In this document: positions 18,386 through 62,019 of the stretch, piece after piece | Layout of the letters: each line of letters opens with the position of its first letter | Numbering within the stretch: the stretch's first letter is position 1 | Assembly (NCBI GenBank): GCA_963556145.1 | Contig: OY744461.1 | Span: 6,706,891-6,770,890 of the forward strand | Origin: Hygrocybe punicea | Taxonomy: Eukaryota; Basidiomycota; Agaricomycetes; Agaricales; Hygrophoraceae | Direction: 5' to 3' | Length of the DNA stretch: 64,000 nucleotides | Program-made: the position numbers and the translations under genes | The notes under the pieces: model-generated | The model's input: only the letters and a program-made list of their open reading frames with translations | Told to the model about the DNA's origin: nothing | The model's database searches: none

Positions 18386-20290
18386 TGGCCCATTGTCATC
18401 TTCCCGTTGTCGTAGTTCCTGTGCCCGCTGTGGCGTCGTCTTCCCCGTTCTCGCCGTTGTCGTGTTCATCCTCATTCTTGTCTTCATTTATGCCGTCGTC
18501 GTCATTCCTGTTGTCCTCGTTCTTGCTGTCATGGTCAGCCTGGGTTGTCCCTGTTCATGGCTGCGTACCCCATCTCCTTGTCACCTACACCCCATCTGCT
18601 TGTTGTTGCTGTTGCATTTGCATTCATTTGGCACGAGGGTGTGGCAAAAAAACCTACAAATGTTTAAGTAGTCAGTAGAATGAAGAAAAAAGATAAAGAA
18701 CACTTACCTGGGGTGCTCTGGCATCTGCACCCATTGTCGCATCGTTGTTGAAAATGACAAGTCTTGTTGAACATGCGCACGAGACTTTCAACCAGAATTT
18801 GCCAATGTCCCAAACAGGGTTGAGTTGCCATATAGGGAAGGGTGGCTGGATTTTCTTATTATTACTACATGTACTACAACACCTCAATGGCCAGGGCAAG
18901 ACCCTGAAGAGATGTAGGTATGATATACCTACCCTGAGGGGAGTTTGTGTATTTTATTTTATTTTATATGTGGAGATATTCACCATGCATTTTATGCCTC
19001 TGCCAAAATTGGACCCTTAAACAGCTAACTTTGTGAGTACACGTCTGAAAAATCTAAAATTAATTCTAGGAGTGCTAAGTAAGGTGTACATTGTATTCCA
19101 GACACATGCCTGGTAGTTGGTGGTGCAGGAAATGCGTTGGGACAAAAATGGAGTTGGATCTTTGCATTGTGGCTAGACAATCAAAAGTCCGTATAAACAG
19201 ACATAATCATGAATGGATTGTGAGTGACAAGTTCATCATATTTTGGCCCCAACACATGCCCTGCACCACCAACTACCAGGCATGTGTCTGGAACACAATG
19301 TACACCTTACTTAGCACTCCTAGAATTAATTTTAGATTTTTCAGACNNNNNNNNNNNNNNNNNNNNNNNNNNNNNNNNNNNNNNNNNNNNNNNNNNNNNN
19401 NNNNNNNNNNNNNNNNNNNNNNNNNNNNNNNNNNNNNNNNNNNNNNNNNNNNNNNNNNNNNNNNNNNNNNNNNNNNNNNNNNNNNNNNNNNNNNNNNNNN
19501 NNNNNNNNNNNNNNNNNNNNNNNNNNNNNNNNNNNNNNNNNNNNNNCACCAACTACCAGCATGTGTCTGGAACACAATGTACACCTTACTTAGCACTCCT
19601 AGAATTAATTTTAGATTTTTCAGACGTGTACTCACAAAGTTAGCTGTTTAAGGGTCCAATTTTGGCAGAGGCATAAAATGCATGGTGAATATCTCCACAT
19701 ATAAAATAAAATAAAATACACAAACTCCCCTCAGGGTAGGTATATCATACCTACATCTCTTCAGGGTCTTGCCCTGGCCATTGAGGTGTTGTAGTACATG
19801 TAGTAATAATAAGAAAATCCAGCCACCCTTCCCTATATGGCAACTCAACCCTGTTTGGGACATTGGCAAATTCTGGTTGAAAGTCTCGTGCGCATGTTCA
19901 ACAAGACTTGTCATTTTCAACAACGACGCGACAATGGGTGCAGATGCCAGAGCACCCAGGTAAGTGTTCTTTATCTTTTTTCTTCATTCTACTGACTACT
20001 TAAACATTTGTAGGTTTTTTTGCCACACCCTCGTGCCAAATGAATGCAAATGCAACAGCAACAACAAGCAGATGGGGTGTAGGTGACAAGGACATGGAGG
20101 ACGCAGCCGTGAACAGGGACAACCCAGGCTGACCATGACAGCAAGGAGGACGATGGGAATGACGGCGACGGCGTAAATGAAGACAAGAACAAGGGCAAAC
20201 GCAACGATGGTGAGAACGGGGAAGATGACGACACAGTGGGCAAGGGAACTACGACAACAGGAAGATGACAACGGGCAGGGCCAACAAAGG
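18385..20290. repeat. Large palindrome (about 745-bp arms) around an assembly gap
   Basis: Left arm about 18385-19130 and right arm 19547-20290 are near-identical reverse complements; both carry a triplet array and the word ggcaacagcaac. The right arm on the plus strand has an intron-like stretch (GTAAGTGTTC at 19961 to TTTGTAG at about 20013). The loop, 19131-19254, is unique. A third, diverged copy of the arm lies at 20660-21080 in the left-arm orientation. No recognised protein; possibly a foldback transposon. Confidence 0.8.
19347..19546. other. Assembly gap of exactly 200 N, probably spurious
   Basis: The 80 bases before the gap (19267-19346) and the 79 after it (19547-19625) are the same sequence, differing by one G. 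The two contig ends therefore overlap. Confidence 0.85.
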
Positions 20291-20510
20291 CGAGGACGAC
20301 AAGGAGGCAGCAGGCATGGGGACAGGGACGGGAACAACAGACCACAGAAATGAGGATGACTGGGATGGGGGAACAGGACAATGAGGACATGGAGCCAAGG
20401 ACAACGGCAACAGGGATGACGAGGATGGAAATGGTGAGGACGGGATGGCAAACAGGATGGCAATGACAACACGAATGGGAACAGGGCCACGCGGTAAAAA
20501 GGGGCACTTG
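20291..20510. repeat. Triplet array C, outer part
   Basis: gac/aac/gga-type triplets continuing outward from the right palindrome arm. The reverse complement matches array A (14930-15289). Reads Asp/Asn/Gly-rich in one plus frame; interrupted by stops. Confidence 0.6.
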
Positions 20511-55129: not shown

Positions 55130-55820
55130 AGAGCCCATGGGCTAAAGGTCCAATCCCAGTGGATGGGCTGAGATGGGCCGAGATAATATCCAGACCTATT
55201 GGATTGGATGGGCTGAGATGAGCCGAGATATTCTTTTCCCTTCACATTGCATGGGCCCAGAAAGTTAGAAATAATGATTTCCTACTAGAATTGGATGGGC
55301 CGAGTTTAGGTAGGCTATTGATTTCCCAATAGCATTGGGTGGGCCCAAATGGGGTGAGATATTTTTGGACCCATAGCAGTAGATAGGCCGAGATGGGGTG
55401 AGATATTGATTTCCCACTGGCATTGGATGGGTCGAGATGGGGGGGGATCTTTATTTCCCACTGGCATTGGATGGGCCAAGATGGGGGGGGATATTTATTC
55501 CCTGATTGCATTGGATGGGCCGAGATGGGGTGGGATATTAATTTTCCAATGGCAGTGGATGGGCCGAGATGGGGTGGGATATTTCTTTCCCACTGCCATT
55601 GGATGGGCCAAGATGGGGTATTAATTTTCCAATGGCAGTGGATGGGCCGAGATGGGGGGATATTGAATTCCCACTGGCATTGGGTGGGCTGAGATGTGGT
55701 GGGATATTTATTTCCCACTGGGACTGGATGGGCCAAGATGGGGTGGGATATTTAATTCCCACTGGCAGTGGATGGGCCGAGATGGGGGGGATATTTGCCT
55801 GGGCCGAGATGGGGACAACC
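55130..55820. repeat. Minisatellite 4 (about 47-50 bp unit)
   Basis: About 14 units around GGATGGGCCGAGATGGGGTG and ggatatttatttcccactgg. ORFs on both strands derive from the repeat. Confidence 0.9.
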
Positions 55821-55910
55821 ATAAAGTTAGCACAGGTTACAATAGGTTGTTTATTTCTCAACACTATCTGATGGACCTCACTGGATATGATTTATATCCC
55901 ACTAGCATTA

Positions 55911-56523
55911 TTGCCATTTTCAGAAAGGTTGTCACATCACACGTAACATGCGAATTTTGTCACTCTGGCACACGAAACATCGGTGAGCCGTTTCTCATCC
56001 AATTCTCAACATTTCCATCTAATTCTTTCTGTTCTGTCATCCCCTCATCCCTCTTCAGGTGCACAACCAACTTTCAGGCCCCATTTCTCAAGTATGGGCA
56101 CGATCAAAATTTGGGCCTTGTCACCCTCTCGGAGAACATTTCTGGTGCATCGCGGGGAGATACCAAGCTGGAATTGGGCCGAAATAACCCAGGTATGTCC
56201 TGCCCAGATGCCCATGTAGTTTTTGTGCTGAATCACTTGAATTTTCACCGTAGGAAAACCCAGATGTCACCCAACGCCGCCCTGACGCTGTGAGCGTATC
56301 TGCATTACCTAGTGGAGAGATGTTGTCCAGGAACTATATGGAACCTTTCATGGTATGTCTACCCCAGTTGCATGCGTCACCATAAGCTGACCATACTCAG
56401 TACTCGGCTTTACAGGCGGCTTGGAACCTCTGTACTATACTATCTACCTCCAGCCATTTTTCTCGACATCTATCTGTTCGGTTTGTGCACGGCTAGTCTA
56501 TTATTTGTATACGACACCTGTAT
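55911..56523 (+). repeat. Left terminal inverted repeat / gene leader
   Basis: Nearly identical to the reverse complement of 61340-61951. Contains paired splice-like signals in gene direction: ACATCG|GTGAGCC to CTCTTCAG, CCCAG|GTATGTCC to CACCGTAG, and TTTCATG|GTATGTC to TTTACAG. The same signals are in the right arm. It therefore may act as a 5' leader with introns for the neighbouring gene. Confidence 0.75.
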
Positions 56524-56628
56524 GATGTAGTTTTTACCTGAATAATGATCCCTTCACCGTTGAACTCGACACTGCCATATTAGGTATCCAAAGCCAACGT
56601 TGATCTTCTGAAACGACTCCGAATCACT

Positions 56629-57819
56629 ATGCCACGAGGCAAACGAATCTCTGAAGACCTACGCTGGGCAATTGTTCGGATGGCACCATGTGAAGATCTC
56701 GACAAAATCGCCGCTTACACTGGCATAAGCCGACGACAAGTCCTCAGGATTCTGGCTCAACATCGCTCAACTGGCCGAGTTTCTGAGCCATTGGTGGACC
56801 AGCGGCTGATCGGAAGGCGTCGTCATTTGACCTCTGAGGAGGTTTCAGTATGTCATCGCTTGAGATCGTTGATGCATTGACCAAAATTCCCATCAGTTCC
56901 TCCAAGGTTGTATTGATGATAACTGTGACGCGTACCTCGAAGAACTTCGCGTCCAGCTCCAGCTGAGCACCCAGAAATCAGTATCCTTATCCACGATATG
57001 GAGAGCCTTGCACCGTAGTGGGCATACTATGAAAAAGGTCGGTTTCCTTTGTTTTTAGCTATTCTAACTGACGATTTTGATAATTCTACACAGCTGACAA
57101 AGGTAGCTATTGAGAGGAGCGCTCTGCTGTGTGCCGAATATATACAAAGGGTTGGCCTTCAGTATCAAGCCGAGCAGCTAGTATTTGTAGACGAGAGTGC
57201 CTGTGATCGGCGCACAACATACCGGGGCCGCACTTGGGCGATTCGGGGCCAGCGTGCTGTCAGAAAAGCCTTTTTCATTCGGGGCAAACGGTATTTTGTT
57301 TCTTTATCTGTTCAAGATCAGTAACTGATACCAGTGATTCAAGATATTCCATACTTCCTGCCATTTCCCTCGGTGGGATATTGACCGTGAAGATTGTCGA
57401 AGGGTCATTCAACACATCTCGCTTCGCCGAATTCATCGAAGAGCTGCTTGAGCAGATGAATCCTTTTCCCGAAGTCAACTCCGTCATTGTAATGGATAAC
57501 TGCCGCATCCACAAGTCCAATCTAATTGCCGAAATGATCGAGGAAAGGTATGTCATTGATCCTGCTTCCTTGCAGGTACTCATTGGATTATAGAGGTATG
57601 TGAATTGAATTTCTCCCCCCATACTCACCGGATTTCAACCCGATTGAACTGGCGTTCTTGGCAATCAAGTCCGACATCAGGCGGAAGGGCAACATAGTGC
57701 GTGCAGTGATGGAAACACCTGACCAGCAGGCTGAGGTCTTTTGCCAACTGTGGGAATCGGTGCACACAGTGACAGCAGACGACGTGGAGGCTTTCTATCA
57801 TCACTGTGGATATTTGTAG
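56629..57819 (+). CDS. Tc1/mariner DD34E transposase (one in-frame stop)
   Basis: Exons 56629-56847, 56897-57037, 57094-57290, 57344-57547 and 57594-57819, introns 46-56 nt, phases consistent, 328 residues. The N-terminus is a helix-turn-helix (EDLDKIAAYTGISRRQVLRI). The catalytic Asp is in LVFVDES (D153), the second in VIVMDNCRIHKS (D237), and Glu in SPDFNPIEL (E272), exactly 34 residues apart, the Tc1 DD34E spacing. An in-frame TGA at 57601-57603 sits where Arg would read (CGA to TGA), so this copy is inactive unless edited. An alternative acceptor at 57575 would add six residues and break the 34 spacing, so I prefer 57593. The gene lies just inside the left TIR. Confidence 0.85.
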
Positions 57820-58069
57820 CTACATCTGGCAAGGCTGATGTAGGAATATTTTGTTGTACTCTGTAATTGTGCAATTATCAATGTCTTTGCTTTGACATCT
57901 GTTGAGGGACTTCATTGCTTTGTAACCTTTGTGGAGGGGTTGAGACTTTCATCAACAAATCCTTGCTTTGTTTGCGAAAAATTGTACATTGATAAGGATT
58001 ATTCAATATGGCTGCCTGTGGAGCTGGACCCTAGTTTGCTTGTTGAGGGGAGGAGCCAGGCACAAGTAT
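57820..58069. other. Spacer in the Tc1-like element
   Basis: No recognised feature; leads into a tandem repeat. Confidence 0.35.
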
Positions 58070-58480
58070 CAAAGGGCATCACTGACGTTCATTTTCAGGG
58101 AAGATGAGTTGGCACCAAGGCCTACCAGCACTACAACAACCGGCTCATCAATAGGAGTTAGTATTGCCTGCTTTGAGTGAAGTAATGGTCTACGATCACC
58201 ATACAGGATCATCAAAGGGCATCACTGCCCATCATAGGAAAGGAGTTGGCACCAAGGCTTACCAACAATACAACAACCGCCTCATCAATGGGAGTTAGTA
58301 TTGCCTGCTTGGAGTGAAGTAATTGTCTACAATTGCCATACAGGATTGTCAAAGGGCATCACTGCCCATAATAGGCAAAGAGTTGGCACCAAGGCTTACC
58401 AACAATACAACAACCAGCTCATCAATTGCAGTTAGTATTGCCTGCTTTCAGTCAAGCAATGGACCACGATGATATCTTTG
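58070..58480. repeat. About 140-bp tandem repeat, three copies
   Basis: Units start caaagggcatcactg at 58070, 58213 and 58350 and share ggagttggcaccaaggctta and ggagttagtattgcctgctt. Lies between the two genes of the element. Confidence 0.9.
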
Positions 58481-59600
58481 CTCTCTTTCATTGGCCTGGC
58501 TACTTTTCCACCTTGCATCATTTTATGTTTTGCCTGGTCTTCCTCTCTTCACTTGGCAGTCTGCTAATTGCCTCTGCTTTCGACTTGTGACTTTACCAAT
58601 TTTCATATTCAACCGACACACACTGTCCCATCTACATTGAAATTTCATCCACCCTGCTCATCTCAGTGCAACTCAGTCTCTCATCAGTCATGTTGCACCA
58701 CACCCTGCTGCTGTAGTCACCAATCATGAAACCCCAGCCCCTTGGTCCATTTCTATGTGTCCTTAATTTATATCCTATTTTAATCCTGCTTTTAAATAAA
58801 GGAATTGAGACAAGGTGCTAGGCACAAAAATGACAGGGGAACACCCAATCCTGCTGCTGACCTTGATCAAGATGGTGGTTCACCCCTCCAAACCTGTTTA
58901 TTTCCTGTATCACTCATTGCCAGGATGGCAAGATCTACACCACTAGCAATGCACCTGCAGTGGTGTGAATGTTCCTCAATTGGTTTTTGTTGTAATACCT
59001 GCTTTCCCTCTGTCAGCCAGACTTGACTAAGATCACCATTCAGTTACAGTGAGGTTGTGGGTGATCATGGCCCATCATCTCACGCACGGACCCCTCGTCA
59101 CGTCACAAACACAAATGGCCAACAGCTAATAACTTGAGGTAGCTGTAGCTGGTAGCTGGTCATCAGCCTTAGCTTAGCCAGACCTGGGCTAAGCTAAAAC
59201 AGGCTAGGCTACTGGCTACTAGCCTTAGCTGTGGTAATACTAGAGCTGGATGTATTATTCCAGGTACTTTATAATTCAAGGGACCCATCATTGATTCCAA
59301 CTTGTAAGGCTCCAGGTAAGAATTCCCCACTCAGGTCAGTGACATCAACACAGTAGTTGTGTTCAAATTGTTTGTCCAATAATCCATAGGTCTTAACATA
59401 TTGATGCTCTCACTCCATCCATTCCATCCTCACCATACATAAGGCAAGCTGCCCCATGATTGCCAATATATATTTAATTTTCAATGATCCCAACTTTCTG
59501 CATTCTGAGCAACCAAACAGCAACACTATATTGATAACTACAAGTCTGTTGAAGACATTGTAGGACTATCTACACACAAGAAAATGTTTCACTACTGCCC
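58481..59600. other. Middle region with a decayed MITE end
   Basis: 59108-59242 carries agctaagc words and ends TTAGCTGTGGTAATACTA, matching the right end of the MITE at 11151-11449. The left end is not defined. Otherwise AT-rich without a recognised gene. Confidence 0.45.
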
Positions 59601-59601
59601 A

Positions 59602-61238
59602 TTATTTCCTGTTGGCCCTCTCAGCCTTCTTGATACGATCCGTGTCCTTCTGCGCAAACTTGAGAATTCGTTTCGCAATTCCAATTGGGATATTGCAAAT
59701 GGTCAAGAAATGGGTAATAGTCTCATTAGCAAGGCCTTCACCGGCAAGCTCATGGATGCGCCTGAACCCATTCACCCGGATGGCATCAGTATACTGGGAA
59801 AAATTATCTCCATCGATGCCCCGAGCACTGGAGTCGAGTGCAGCAAGCCAGGTGGGGATGGCTGGGAAGACATTGGGGATGTCATCGAAATCTATGCTGT
59901 CTGAGCTGGGGATGTGCAGCCCATCACGTCGGGAGTGAGATGATTTTTTGGGTACGGCTGATGGAGGGGTGTACGGGGAATAGTGGTGCCTCAATCCACC
60001 ATATGGAGGTGGCATCTGAATGATGATCAGTTGAGCCACACCACTTGTAGCAGCAACTTGAGCGGGTTTCGCATTTATGTGCTGGCGAGAGGAAGCGTCG
60101 CCAAGCTTCAACTGGACAGGTGGCGAGATGATCGAATCATATGAGCCGTTTGCCTGACGTGGACTACAATGAGTCTCGTTAAGCAATAAATAAACGAGAC
60201 TCACGAGAAGCATGCCCCAGAGACTTAGATCAGTTATTTGTAAGGTGTAGTGATGGCCCTCCGGATATTTGACACAGCGTTTGCCGTCGTGAAGAGGACA
60301 TTTGAGGTTCTCCGTAATCTCGGCAATGTAATCGGCGGATGTCTTCGGCACTTTCTTCCCCGATTCAGTGTCATTCCCACTCTCCTCATCCATGTCCGCT
60401 CGTTTCTTCCTCTTGGCCTTCACCTTGTCCAAGCATGTAGTCAGTCTAGTACATAGTATTATCAATTGAAATATTACCTTGTCCTTCTTATCGTCTGCCC
60501 ATCTCTTTCCACCCTTGCGAGACGTTTTGCATTGATCGATGAGAATAACCTGAAATGCCTTCTTTTTACCTTTAGCCTTAGCCATCTGATTCAACTCTGT
60601 CCGTGCGGCATCAAATAACGCAGCAAGGTGAGTCGCTTTGGTGAGTAGGAGAGGTCGCGCCTTGGCAGTCCATGTGCTGAACTTATAGGCCACCTCGAGT
60701 TCGGAACGCCAAATATCCATCACATCGGCAACCTCGCTACAAAACGTACTCCAAGTGGTGCCGGATGAAAATTTTTGTACGTCAGATGCGGTCCCGATAG
60801 GGATATTGAATTCGAGGCAGAGAGCTTCTGTAAATTAGCGTAAGCGTAGGAAATATGTCAATAAAAAACCAGAAAACCTTTGGGTTCGGAATCAGCATCA
60901 GAATCCAAGCTGACGACGTCAAATTCTTCATTGCGTTTTGCATCCGCAGCCCCAGCTGGCCCAAGAAGCTCCTTGACAAGGATGTTGACATCGTTGGCGT
61001 CTCGCTCGTTGTCGGAGCCAGGAGGTGGATTGTATACCTCGTCGCGATCTAGCACTTCGACATCCAGCTCCGAGTCATCTAGTCTGTCGCACACTTTGTA
61101 GGCTGGCGTTGGTTTGGGACGTGTTCGAGGACGAGGGGGTGTAGGGCTTTTGCCAGCCTCAACTGGCAGGTCCTTAGGGACAGGAGCTGCCCGGTGTGCT
61201 TTGGGACCTTGGCTTTGTTTTTGTCGAGCGTTCCCCAT
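59602..61238 (-). CDS. Conserved accessory protein of the Tc1-like element, function unknown
   Basis: Start Met at 61238 (MGNARQKQSQGPK). Exon 1 runs 61238-60878, a 50-nt intron follows, then an open frame 60827-59602, 528 residues if read straight; a 54-nt in-frame intron (60477-60424) is likely. An alternative start at 61319 is in frame. Features: basic/Pro-rich and acidic N-terminus; about 125-250 a conserved-looking block (TWSTFCSEVADVMDIW, LAALFDAARTELNQMAKAKG); about 295-330 a CPLHDGKRC..YPEGHHYTLQ segment that could bind zinc; about 445-515 a helical domain (LDSSARGIDGDNFSQYTDAI, then IPIGIAKRILKFAQKD) with a SAM-like pattern. I remember similar orphan proteins in many Agaricomycete genomes, but no function. 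Being bounded by the TIRs suggests a role in transposition or its control. Confidence 0.7.
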
Positions 61239-61339
61239 GCAAGTCGCGATGAAGGAGGAAGGATGATCTTCGGCCGTTTCTGCAGTAACACACGATTTGA
61301 TTTGGCTCTCAAGCAACAAATATATTTATATAAGTACAA

Positions 61340-61951
61340 TACATGTCTCATATACGAAGGATAGACCAGCTGTGCACAAACAGAATGGATAGATGTCGAG
61401 AAAAATGGCTGGAGGTAGATAGTATAGTACAGAGGTTCCAAGCCGCCTGTAAAGCCGAGTACTGAGTATGGTCAGCTTATGGCGACGCATGCAACTGGGG
61501 TAGACATACCATGAAAGGTTCCATATAGTTCCTGGACAACATCTCTCCACTAGGTAATGCAGATACGCTCACAGCGTCAGGGCGGCGTTGGGTGACATCT
61601 GGGTTTTCCTACGGTGAAAATTCAAGTGATTCAGCACAAAAACTACATGGGCATCTGGGCAGGACATACCTGGGTTATTTCGGCCCAATTCCAGCTTTAT
61701 ATCTCCCCGCAATGCACCAGAAATGTTCTCCGAGAGGGTGACAAGGCCCAAATTTTGATCGTGCCCATACTTGAGAAATGGGGCCTGAAAGTTGGTTGTG
61801 CACCTGGAGAGGGATGAGGGGATGACAGAACAGAAAGAATTAGACGGAAATGTTGAGAATTGGATGAGAAACGGCTCACCGATGTTTTGTGTGCCAGAGT
61901 GACAAAATTCGCATGTTACGTGTGATGTGACAACCTTTCTGAAAACGGCAA
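61340..61951 (-). repeat. Right terminal inverted repeat / gene leader
   Basis: Inverse copy of 55911-56523, ending GAAAACGGCAA then TA. It has the same splice-like signals in the direction of the accessory gene. A few substitutions separate the arms. Confidence 0.75.
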
Positions 61952-62019
61952 TAATATAGGACAATATCTGATTCACAACCTCAAAAGAACTCATTTCTGA
62001 AGTCTGTTCTTAGTGTTCT

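Follow-up and report, generated by a model that had tools for sequence, protein, structure and literature searches.

A two-gene Tc1-type element with long inverted repeats and a putative SAM-like accessory protein in Hygrocybe punicea

Multi-gene elements of the Tc1/mariner type

Tc1/mariner transposases are textbook one-protein machines. Typical members encode a transposase alone (PMC12242761, in the portion of the text covered), and long terminal inverted repeats (TIRs) occur in some Tc1 elements, such as Minos (PMC7325037, likewise in part). According to the same portions of these two papers, the TBE elements of Oxytricha are of the Tc1/mariner type with DD34E, and their accessory genes have been proposed to act in transposition (PMC12242761, PMC7325037); one of the two accessory proteins (57 kDa) has zinc-finger and kinase domains, the other has a size of 22 kDa, and the TIRs are about 80 bp. 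The Tec elements of ciliates are described in the covered part of PMC7325037 as DD34E elements with TIRs of about 700 bp and three open reading frames (ORFs), one in the complement, the second of which is a site-specific recombinase.

The window analyzed in the present study, a 64,000-nucleotide stretch of the H. punicea genome to which all positions below refer, contains a Tc1-type element of 6,041 bp (55911-61951), with a pair of 613-bp inverted repeats (97%) enclosing a DD34E/DDE_3 transposase gene and, in convergent orientation to it, an accessory gene of four exons. We confirmed that this two-gene element is real. It resembles the Tc1 family in its DD34E/DDE_3 transposase, TA duplication, and inverted repeats, and is unlike this family in the presence of a second gene in all 22 paired copies and in its TTAA targets. 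Compared by description, it differs from TBE, which has two accessory proteins and belongs to ciliates, in having one protein with a Cys/His segment and a SAM-like region, long TIRs, and a fungal host, while the recombinase of Tec has no counterpart among the domains found in this element. Because of the ciliate precedents TBE and Tec, we regard the element as a variant of a known multi-gene Tc1/mariner type. The original prediction, which held the element to be undescribed under any name, needs to be narrowed since multi-gene members are known (PMC7325037, PMC12242761, in the parts covered); among the matches listed for open-access papers, no title or opening of an abstract mentioned a Tc1 element of fungi accompanied by a SAM-like protein, and neither did the covered part of PMC10799480. 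A partner that is kept through deep divergence and in several gene orders would show a minimal transposase becoming dependent on, or controlled by, a second protein, and would provide a form of Tc1-type integration that is naturally specific for TTAA.

MuDR/VANDAL (Mutator), PIF/Harbinger, and En/Spm also carry more than one gene, and in MuDR convergent genes start from long TIRs; however, these elements belong to other transposase superfamilies with other target duplications. PiggyBac shares the TTAA target, but duplicates all four bases, whereas empty sites showed the duplication of TA alone in the present element.

Structure of the element and its two genes

The edges of the element were set by comparisons with other copies, which placed its start (TTGCC) at 55911 and its end (GGCAA) at 61951. 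The left TIR (55911-56523, forward strand) and right TIR (61339-61951, reverse strand) are 613 bp each and 97% complementary, the inverted arms as aligned being slightly longer (55907-56523 and 61339-61955; 617 nt, 97% complementary), and the two copies of the duplicated TA lie at 55909-55910, within a T-TA-A target, and at 61952-61953. The long TIRs of 610 bp with TA at both edges that had been predicted were thus borne out. Three direct repeats of 137 nt lie in the intergenic interval (58095-58505). An ORF within the TIR (ATGGGCACG..., near 56096) was considered as a shared first exon and rejected: its dN/dS ratio across 40 arms was 1.14, against 0.46 and 0.59 in shifted frames, and, therefore, it carries no coding signal.

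The transposase gene, on the forward strand, was placed in five exons: exon 1 (56629-56847; MPRGKR start and HTH region), exon 2 (56897-57037), exon 3 (57094-57290; first catalytic Asp, in VDES), exon 4 (57344-57547; second catalytic Asp, in VMDN), and exon 5 (57594-57819; PYSPDFNPIE with the catalytic Glu), the first four by a splice model and the last by a copy alignment. Exons 1-4, read letter for letter, matched Pfam DDE_3 (E=1.8e-18; 67.2 bits against a cut-off of 28.6), and a hand count using the last exon junction of copies that lack the TGA described below gave 34 residues from the second Asp (VMD-N) to the Glu (PI-E). Together with the TA duplication, these results agree with the predicted DD34E Tc1-type transposase, for which the closest solved chain was Sleeping Beauty (E=0.027). 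The same four exons retrieved 185 proteins at E≤0.001 from a protein collection that includes mushroom proteins; the best of the 120 listed was from Mycena (63% identity), and the relatives among the matches listed carry names such as Tc1-like or DDE endonucleases of mushrooms. An in-frame TGA (57601-57603), present in four of the 19 copies aligned there, precedes the catalytic Glu, and so the copy in the window is probably dead.

The accessory gene (acc1) faces the transposase gene from the reverse strand, as had been predicted, and consensus splice sites and the reading frame yielded four predicted exons running from 61238 to 59602. These comprise exon 1 (60878-61238), with the start MGNAR, exon 2 (60478-60827), with a conserved N-terminal globular region, exon 3 (60205-60423), with the conserved Cys/His segment C-x2-H-x4-C-x6-H followed by a Trp, and exon 4 (59602-60153; stop codon 59602-59604), with a Pro/Tyr-rich linker and the putative SAM-like C-terminal domain. 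The start M(G/V)NAR is common to the window gene and loci L034, L038, and L039. The model gives a protein of 493 aa rather than the approximately 528 residues initially proposed; the proposed Cys/His segment was recovered. The accessory exons had dN/dS ratios of 0.43-0.57, modestly lower than the 0.51-0.86 of the shifted-frame controls of two exons, although exon 2 (0.57) exceeded one of its own controls.

The N terminus of the accessory protein is charged, and Pfam assigned no family to the 493 aa except a chance-level match to DUF1156 (E=0.15), with no catalytic, recombinase, or kinase domain being recognized. In the protein collection, its stop-to-stop ORF yielded 3,472 word-sharing candidates, none at E≤0.001, and an alignment of three accessory proteins likewise gave none at this threshold among at least 7,994 scored candidates. 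The orphan relatives that had been suggested to exist in mushroom genomes were, therefore, not found in this collection; since the search depends on exact matches of five-residue words, while the accessory protein diverges rapidly, this miss is weak evidence.

Pairing of the two genes across the genome

A genome-wide search for the TIR detected 61 ends, against 0 for a reversed-pattern control. These formed 22 pairs, to which the gene counts refer, with 17 further ends unpaired. The accessory gene was inside all 22 pairs, such that none of these pairs flanks the transposase alone, and the transposase core was inside 21; the exception, L030, retains transposase exons 1-2. Both proteins were also matched at all 20 main-family loci picked from the TIR, accessory, and transposase match lists. 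The paired copies thus enclose both genes within one set of TIRs, and these findings support the two-component reading of the element put forward in the original prediction.

The same gene pair, inside TIRs of its own, was present in the divergent elements L033, L034, L035, L037, L038, and L040+L041, and the divergent two-gene families show three gene orders. A kinase-like ORF fragment was also observed inside L040. Comparable pairs occur in two more Tc1 lineages. In lineage 2, a gene designated acc2 adjoins 89 of 99 transposase rows (at least 44% identity), 84 of them convergently, against a chance of about 0.013 per row. In lineage 3, acc3 adjoins 52 of 67 rows (at least 43% identity), convergently in every case; 25 more distant transposase rows from the lineage-3 search had no acc3 neighbor. 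Three loci considered as single-gene controls were ruled out because L042 and L043 carry acc2 and L044 carries acc3. Chance at the window locus does not account for the pairing.

The recurrence of the accessory gene in 22 of 22 TIR pairs, in several other TIR families with varied gene orders, and in comparable form in two further lineages also bears on whether it is a host gene trapped between two elements as a passenger. For eight of the 24 divergent accessory loci, none of the listed transposase rows of lineage 1 lay within 10 kb, and free-standing relatives may consequently exist; nevertheless, the passenger reading is contradicted by the data in this genome, and we consider it highly improbable. 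A broader proposal is that at least three transposase lineages, each with a SAM-like partner needed for complex assembly and for fixing the TTAA target, make up a large and old class of obligate two-component Tc1 elements, which we advance tentatively, as a possibility that we would not yet favor. The agreement between transposase and accessory distances was borderline (Mantel, 42/720).

SAM-like region, target site, and possible role of the partner

Regarding the C terminus of the accessory protein, the SAM-like identity that had been claimed is supported mainly by relatives. The accessory protein of L035 reached 20.2 bits with SAM_2 as a whole ORF, 23.4 as the domain alone, and 21.2 in the genome search (cut-off 20.5), and three acc3 loci reached 16.8-19.9 bits in the latter, whereas the C terminus encoded in the window matched neither SAM_1, SAM_2, nor any other Pfam family. 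Four of the nine SAM_2 matches in the whole genome fell on acc1 or acc3 loci, one of the four being above the cut-off, and none of the eight SAM_1 matches fell on accessory loci (positions compared by eye). A match between the Cys/His segment of acc3 and the profile of acc1 was obtained with hhalign at a probability of 71% (P=3.8e-5). Profile comparisons of the acc1 C terminus gave no support for likeness to acc2 or acc3; the likeness of acc2 to SAM is thus a visual judgment alone, and for acc3 the likeness is based on the genome SAM_2 search and its architecture. Single-sequence AlphaFold models of the C- and N-terminal regions were both poor (pLDDT 52 and 61), and a fold search with the former gave no match at E≤0.001. 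Against the PDB, the SAM-region profile matched designed helical proteins best and others at a weaker, chance level, and nothing usable was obtained with the N-terminal profile (best VCIP135, E=0.62), the Cys/His profile, or acc2.

Empty-site comparisons (L032 with window positions 20350-19585 and 18388-19083; L014 with L022) showed insertion into TTAA with TA alone duplicated, which places the anticipated TA duplication inside a longer target. The T-TA-A context was present at all 16 two-ended main copies, and also in five divergent elements, a result partly built in because their edges were located by the string TTATTG; in the window, TTAA accounts for 200 of 3,484 TA sites. This preference is consistent with a partner that serves as a target-site or chromatin tether and confers the TTAA choice. 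However, the acc2 and acc3 lineages each yielded one TTA edge, and the preference may, therefore, belong to the transposase itself; a tether appears improbable.

We slightly favor a cut-and-paste Tc1 unit (DD34E, DDE_3) of two genes, in which the partner would be a non-catalytic cofactor of the transposase. The long TIRs would hold the promoters of both convergent genes and the binding sites for the ends, the transposase would cut at TA, and the accessory protein would assist it: the SAM-like domain may oligomerize, the Cys/His segment may bind zinc and contact TIR DNA or the transposase, and the protein may thereby help to pair both ends or guide the complex to TTAA sites. The recurrence of the pair in this genome and the TTAA empty sites speak for this reading; weighing against it are the weak Pfam and structural support for the SAM-like region, the modest dN/dS contrast, the accessory loci and more distant transposase rows seen without a neighbor of the other kind, the borderline Mantel result, and the failure to find accessory relatives in the protein collection, where transposase relatives were present.

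Fungal repeats are often silenced, and VANC provides anti-silencing for VANDAL elements in Arabidopsis. A regulatory or anti-silencing partner, sustaining expression against host repression from outside the cutting complex, would fit the charged N terminus, the absence of a recognized catalytic domain, and the retention of the partner in 22 of 22 paired copies; however, a partner specific to the transposase would explain at least equally well why the pairing with Tc1 transposases persists across deep divergence and in three gene orders, and no chromatin-type domain was found in the protein, which makes this role unlikely. Some other DNA transposons encode repressors of their own, and by this precedent the partner may limit copy number. 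We judge this to be very unlikely because a repressor has no need to be retained in each copy and five further lineage-3 copies bearing the partner, 98-100% identical to L044 over 2.2 kb spanning both genes, have recently spread.

A transposase gene and a second gene between the same inverted repeats

The element lies at 55911-61951, its edges being set by alignment with other copies and each having TA outside it; the inverted arms found in the window (55907-56523 and 61339-61955) are 97% complementary. It carries a five-exon DDE_3 transposase gene (56629-57819, plus strand) and a four-exon accessory gene (61238-59602, minus strand; 493 residues), the splice sites of both having been placed by consensus and frame. 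An in-frame TGA at 57601-57603, upstream of the catalytic Glu, interrupts the transposase and is common to 4 of the 19 copies aligned at that point; the accessory frame is open. A 44-bp minisatellite (55150-55815) ends approximately 95 bp to the left of the element.

The terminus pattern matched 61 ends in the 92.2-Mb genome versus none for the reversed control. Head-on ends less than 40 kb apart were regarded as pairs (22, with 17 of the 61 ends unpaired), and gene counts cover these pairs. The accessory gene was inside all 22, which agrees with the original prediction of a two-component transposon in that no main-family TIR pair in this genome flanks the transposase alone. The transposase core was inside 21, and the remaining pair (L030) retains transposase exons 1-2. 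Both proteins were matched at all 20 fetched main-family loci (L013-L032), selected from the TIR, accessory, and transposase hit lists. None of the 22 pairs was MITE-sized, and the shortest (L013; 3,305 bp) has an internal deletion that retains part of each gene. The pairing of the genes is due neither to chance nor to trapping. At L024 (237-9432), one transposase gene is located between two accessory genes, one per end and in opposite orientation, as if the inverted repeat had expanded to take in the accessory gene.

Divergent families and two further Tc1 lineages

Relatives of this accessory protein (acc1), with 24-37% identity, co-occur with transposases inside other TIR pairs. The two genes are convergent at L033, L034, L035, and L037 (TIRs of 172-216 bp), on the same strand at L038 (429-bp TIR, putative ends), and divergent in the element of approximately 9.9 kb at L040 and L041 (418-bp TIR). 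These loci were chosen for the proximity of both genes and, thus, demonstrate recurrence, not frequency. Among the rows listed, a transposase row of the window element's lineage (lineage 1) was present within 10 kb of 16 of 24 divergent accessory loci and absent from the other 8.

Between the divergent genes of the 9.9-kb element is a protein-kinase-like ORF fragment (L040:8786-9376; Pkinase E=1.6e-6, 28.1 bits, under the cut-off of 31.7), and a transposase-accessory spacing of 7.6-7.7 kb also occurs at C2:2982230, C2:4023673, and C39:2919752. Three accessory relatives (C40:2720794, C34:88066, and C7:1573174; 27-28% identity over nearly the whole query, in long frames broken by one or two stops) have no lineage-1 transposase nearby among the rows listed, and may either belong to the host or pair with a different transposase. 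L039:5109-5439 is a stretch of unreadable bases.

L042 and L043, presumed single-gene controls, each have a convergent partner of other sequence, acc2 (L042:802-1413 and L043:2619-3284). Genome-wide, 99 rows of this second transposase lineage had at least 44% identity, and acc2 was within 4 kb of 89 of them (84 convergent), with a chance expectation of approximately 0.013 per row. A third transposase lineage has acc3 (L044:2-910), which was within 4 kb of 52 of 67 genome-wide rows at 43% or more, all 52 convergent, and of none of 25 more distant rows. According to alignment limits, TIRs of 114 bp (L043 type) and approximately 75 bp (L044 type) surround both genes. Five more L044-type copies match at 98-100% over 2.2 kb; the acc3-bearing family is recently spread.

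Target site

All 16 two-ended main-family copies examined have T before the left TA and A after the right TA, and the 61 pattern ends read TTA in 58 cases, CTA in two, and TTG in one. Related unoccupied sequences read TTAA for the L032 site (window 20350-19585 and 18388-19083) and the L014 site (in L022). Based on these copy edges and unoccupied sites, the target is TTAA, of which TA alone is duplicated; TTAA represents 200 of the 3,484 TA sites in the window. T-TA-A was also found at five divergent elements, the edges of which were located via the string TTATTG, and the one edge read in each of the acc2 and acc3 lineages starts TTA. The two relatives of the L040 element site do not read TTAA, and the L018 flanks are AT repeats, which are uninformative. 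Window 18388-20350, which corresponds to the L032 site without its insertion, is an interspersed repeat in two orientations.

The partner protein and its possible role

The accessory protein, which starts M(G/V)NAR in some families, has a conserved N-terminal globular region (alignment A3), Cys/His segment (A4), Pro/Tyr-rich linker, and C-terminal helical domain (A1). All seven rows of A4 share the second Cys and the Trp, and each of the first Cys, the first His, and the last His is present in six. The Cys/His segment of acc3 aligned with the acc1 profile across 45 of 47 columns (P=3.8e-5), which makes a relationship between acc1 and acc3 probable. In L035, the C-terminal domain passes the Pfam SAM_2 cut-off when searched by itself and also in the whole-genome search (21.2 bits), the whole ORF being slightly under it. 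Whole-genome searches placed four of nine SAM_2 matches (one above the cut-off) and none of eight SAM_1 matches on acc1 or acc3 loci, and the window protein's own C-terminal domain gave no hit. The C-terminal part of acc2, with a conserved FYGP...WYFC...DW, is SAM-like by eye only.

Main-family dN/dS was 0.43-0.57 for accessory exons and 0.31-0.88 for transposase exons; because shifted-frame controls were 0.42-0.86, these values are weak evidence of selection, of which conservation across divergent families is a stronger sign. Transposase and accessory distances among six families agreed loosely (rho 0.45; Mantel 42 of 720).

No catalytic domain was recognized in the 493-residue protein. The partner has stayed with the transposase despite deep divergence and in three different gene orders, and its role may most simply be that of a non-catalytic cofactor; the main rival explanation is that it acts in anti-silencing. 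As a cofactor, it would assist a transposase that probably binds the TIR ends and cuts at TA, perhaps as an oligomeric scaffold pairing the ends or in target choice.

Transposase relatives among the matches listed, named as in their sources, were from Mycena, Favolaschia, Amanita, Tricholomella, and other mushrooms (up to 63% identity). The orphan mushroom relatives originally suggested for the accessory protein were unconfirmed, a word-based search of the same protein collection giving no match, a weak negative. The layout resembles that of MuDR, in which two convergent genes start from long TIRs, although the enzyme is unlike. No fungal counterpart among Tc1 elements was found in open-access literature listings, which give partial coverage. 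TBE and Tec of ciliates are described as multi-gene DD34E elements (PMC7325037, PMC12242761). One of these sources describes the presence of accessory proteins in Tc1/mariner elements as surprising and reports that the ciliate proteins had no effect on DNA-binding profiles in E. coli (PMC12242761). By their descriptions, the extra proteins of TBE and Tec differ from the window partner.
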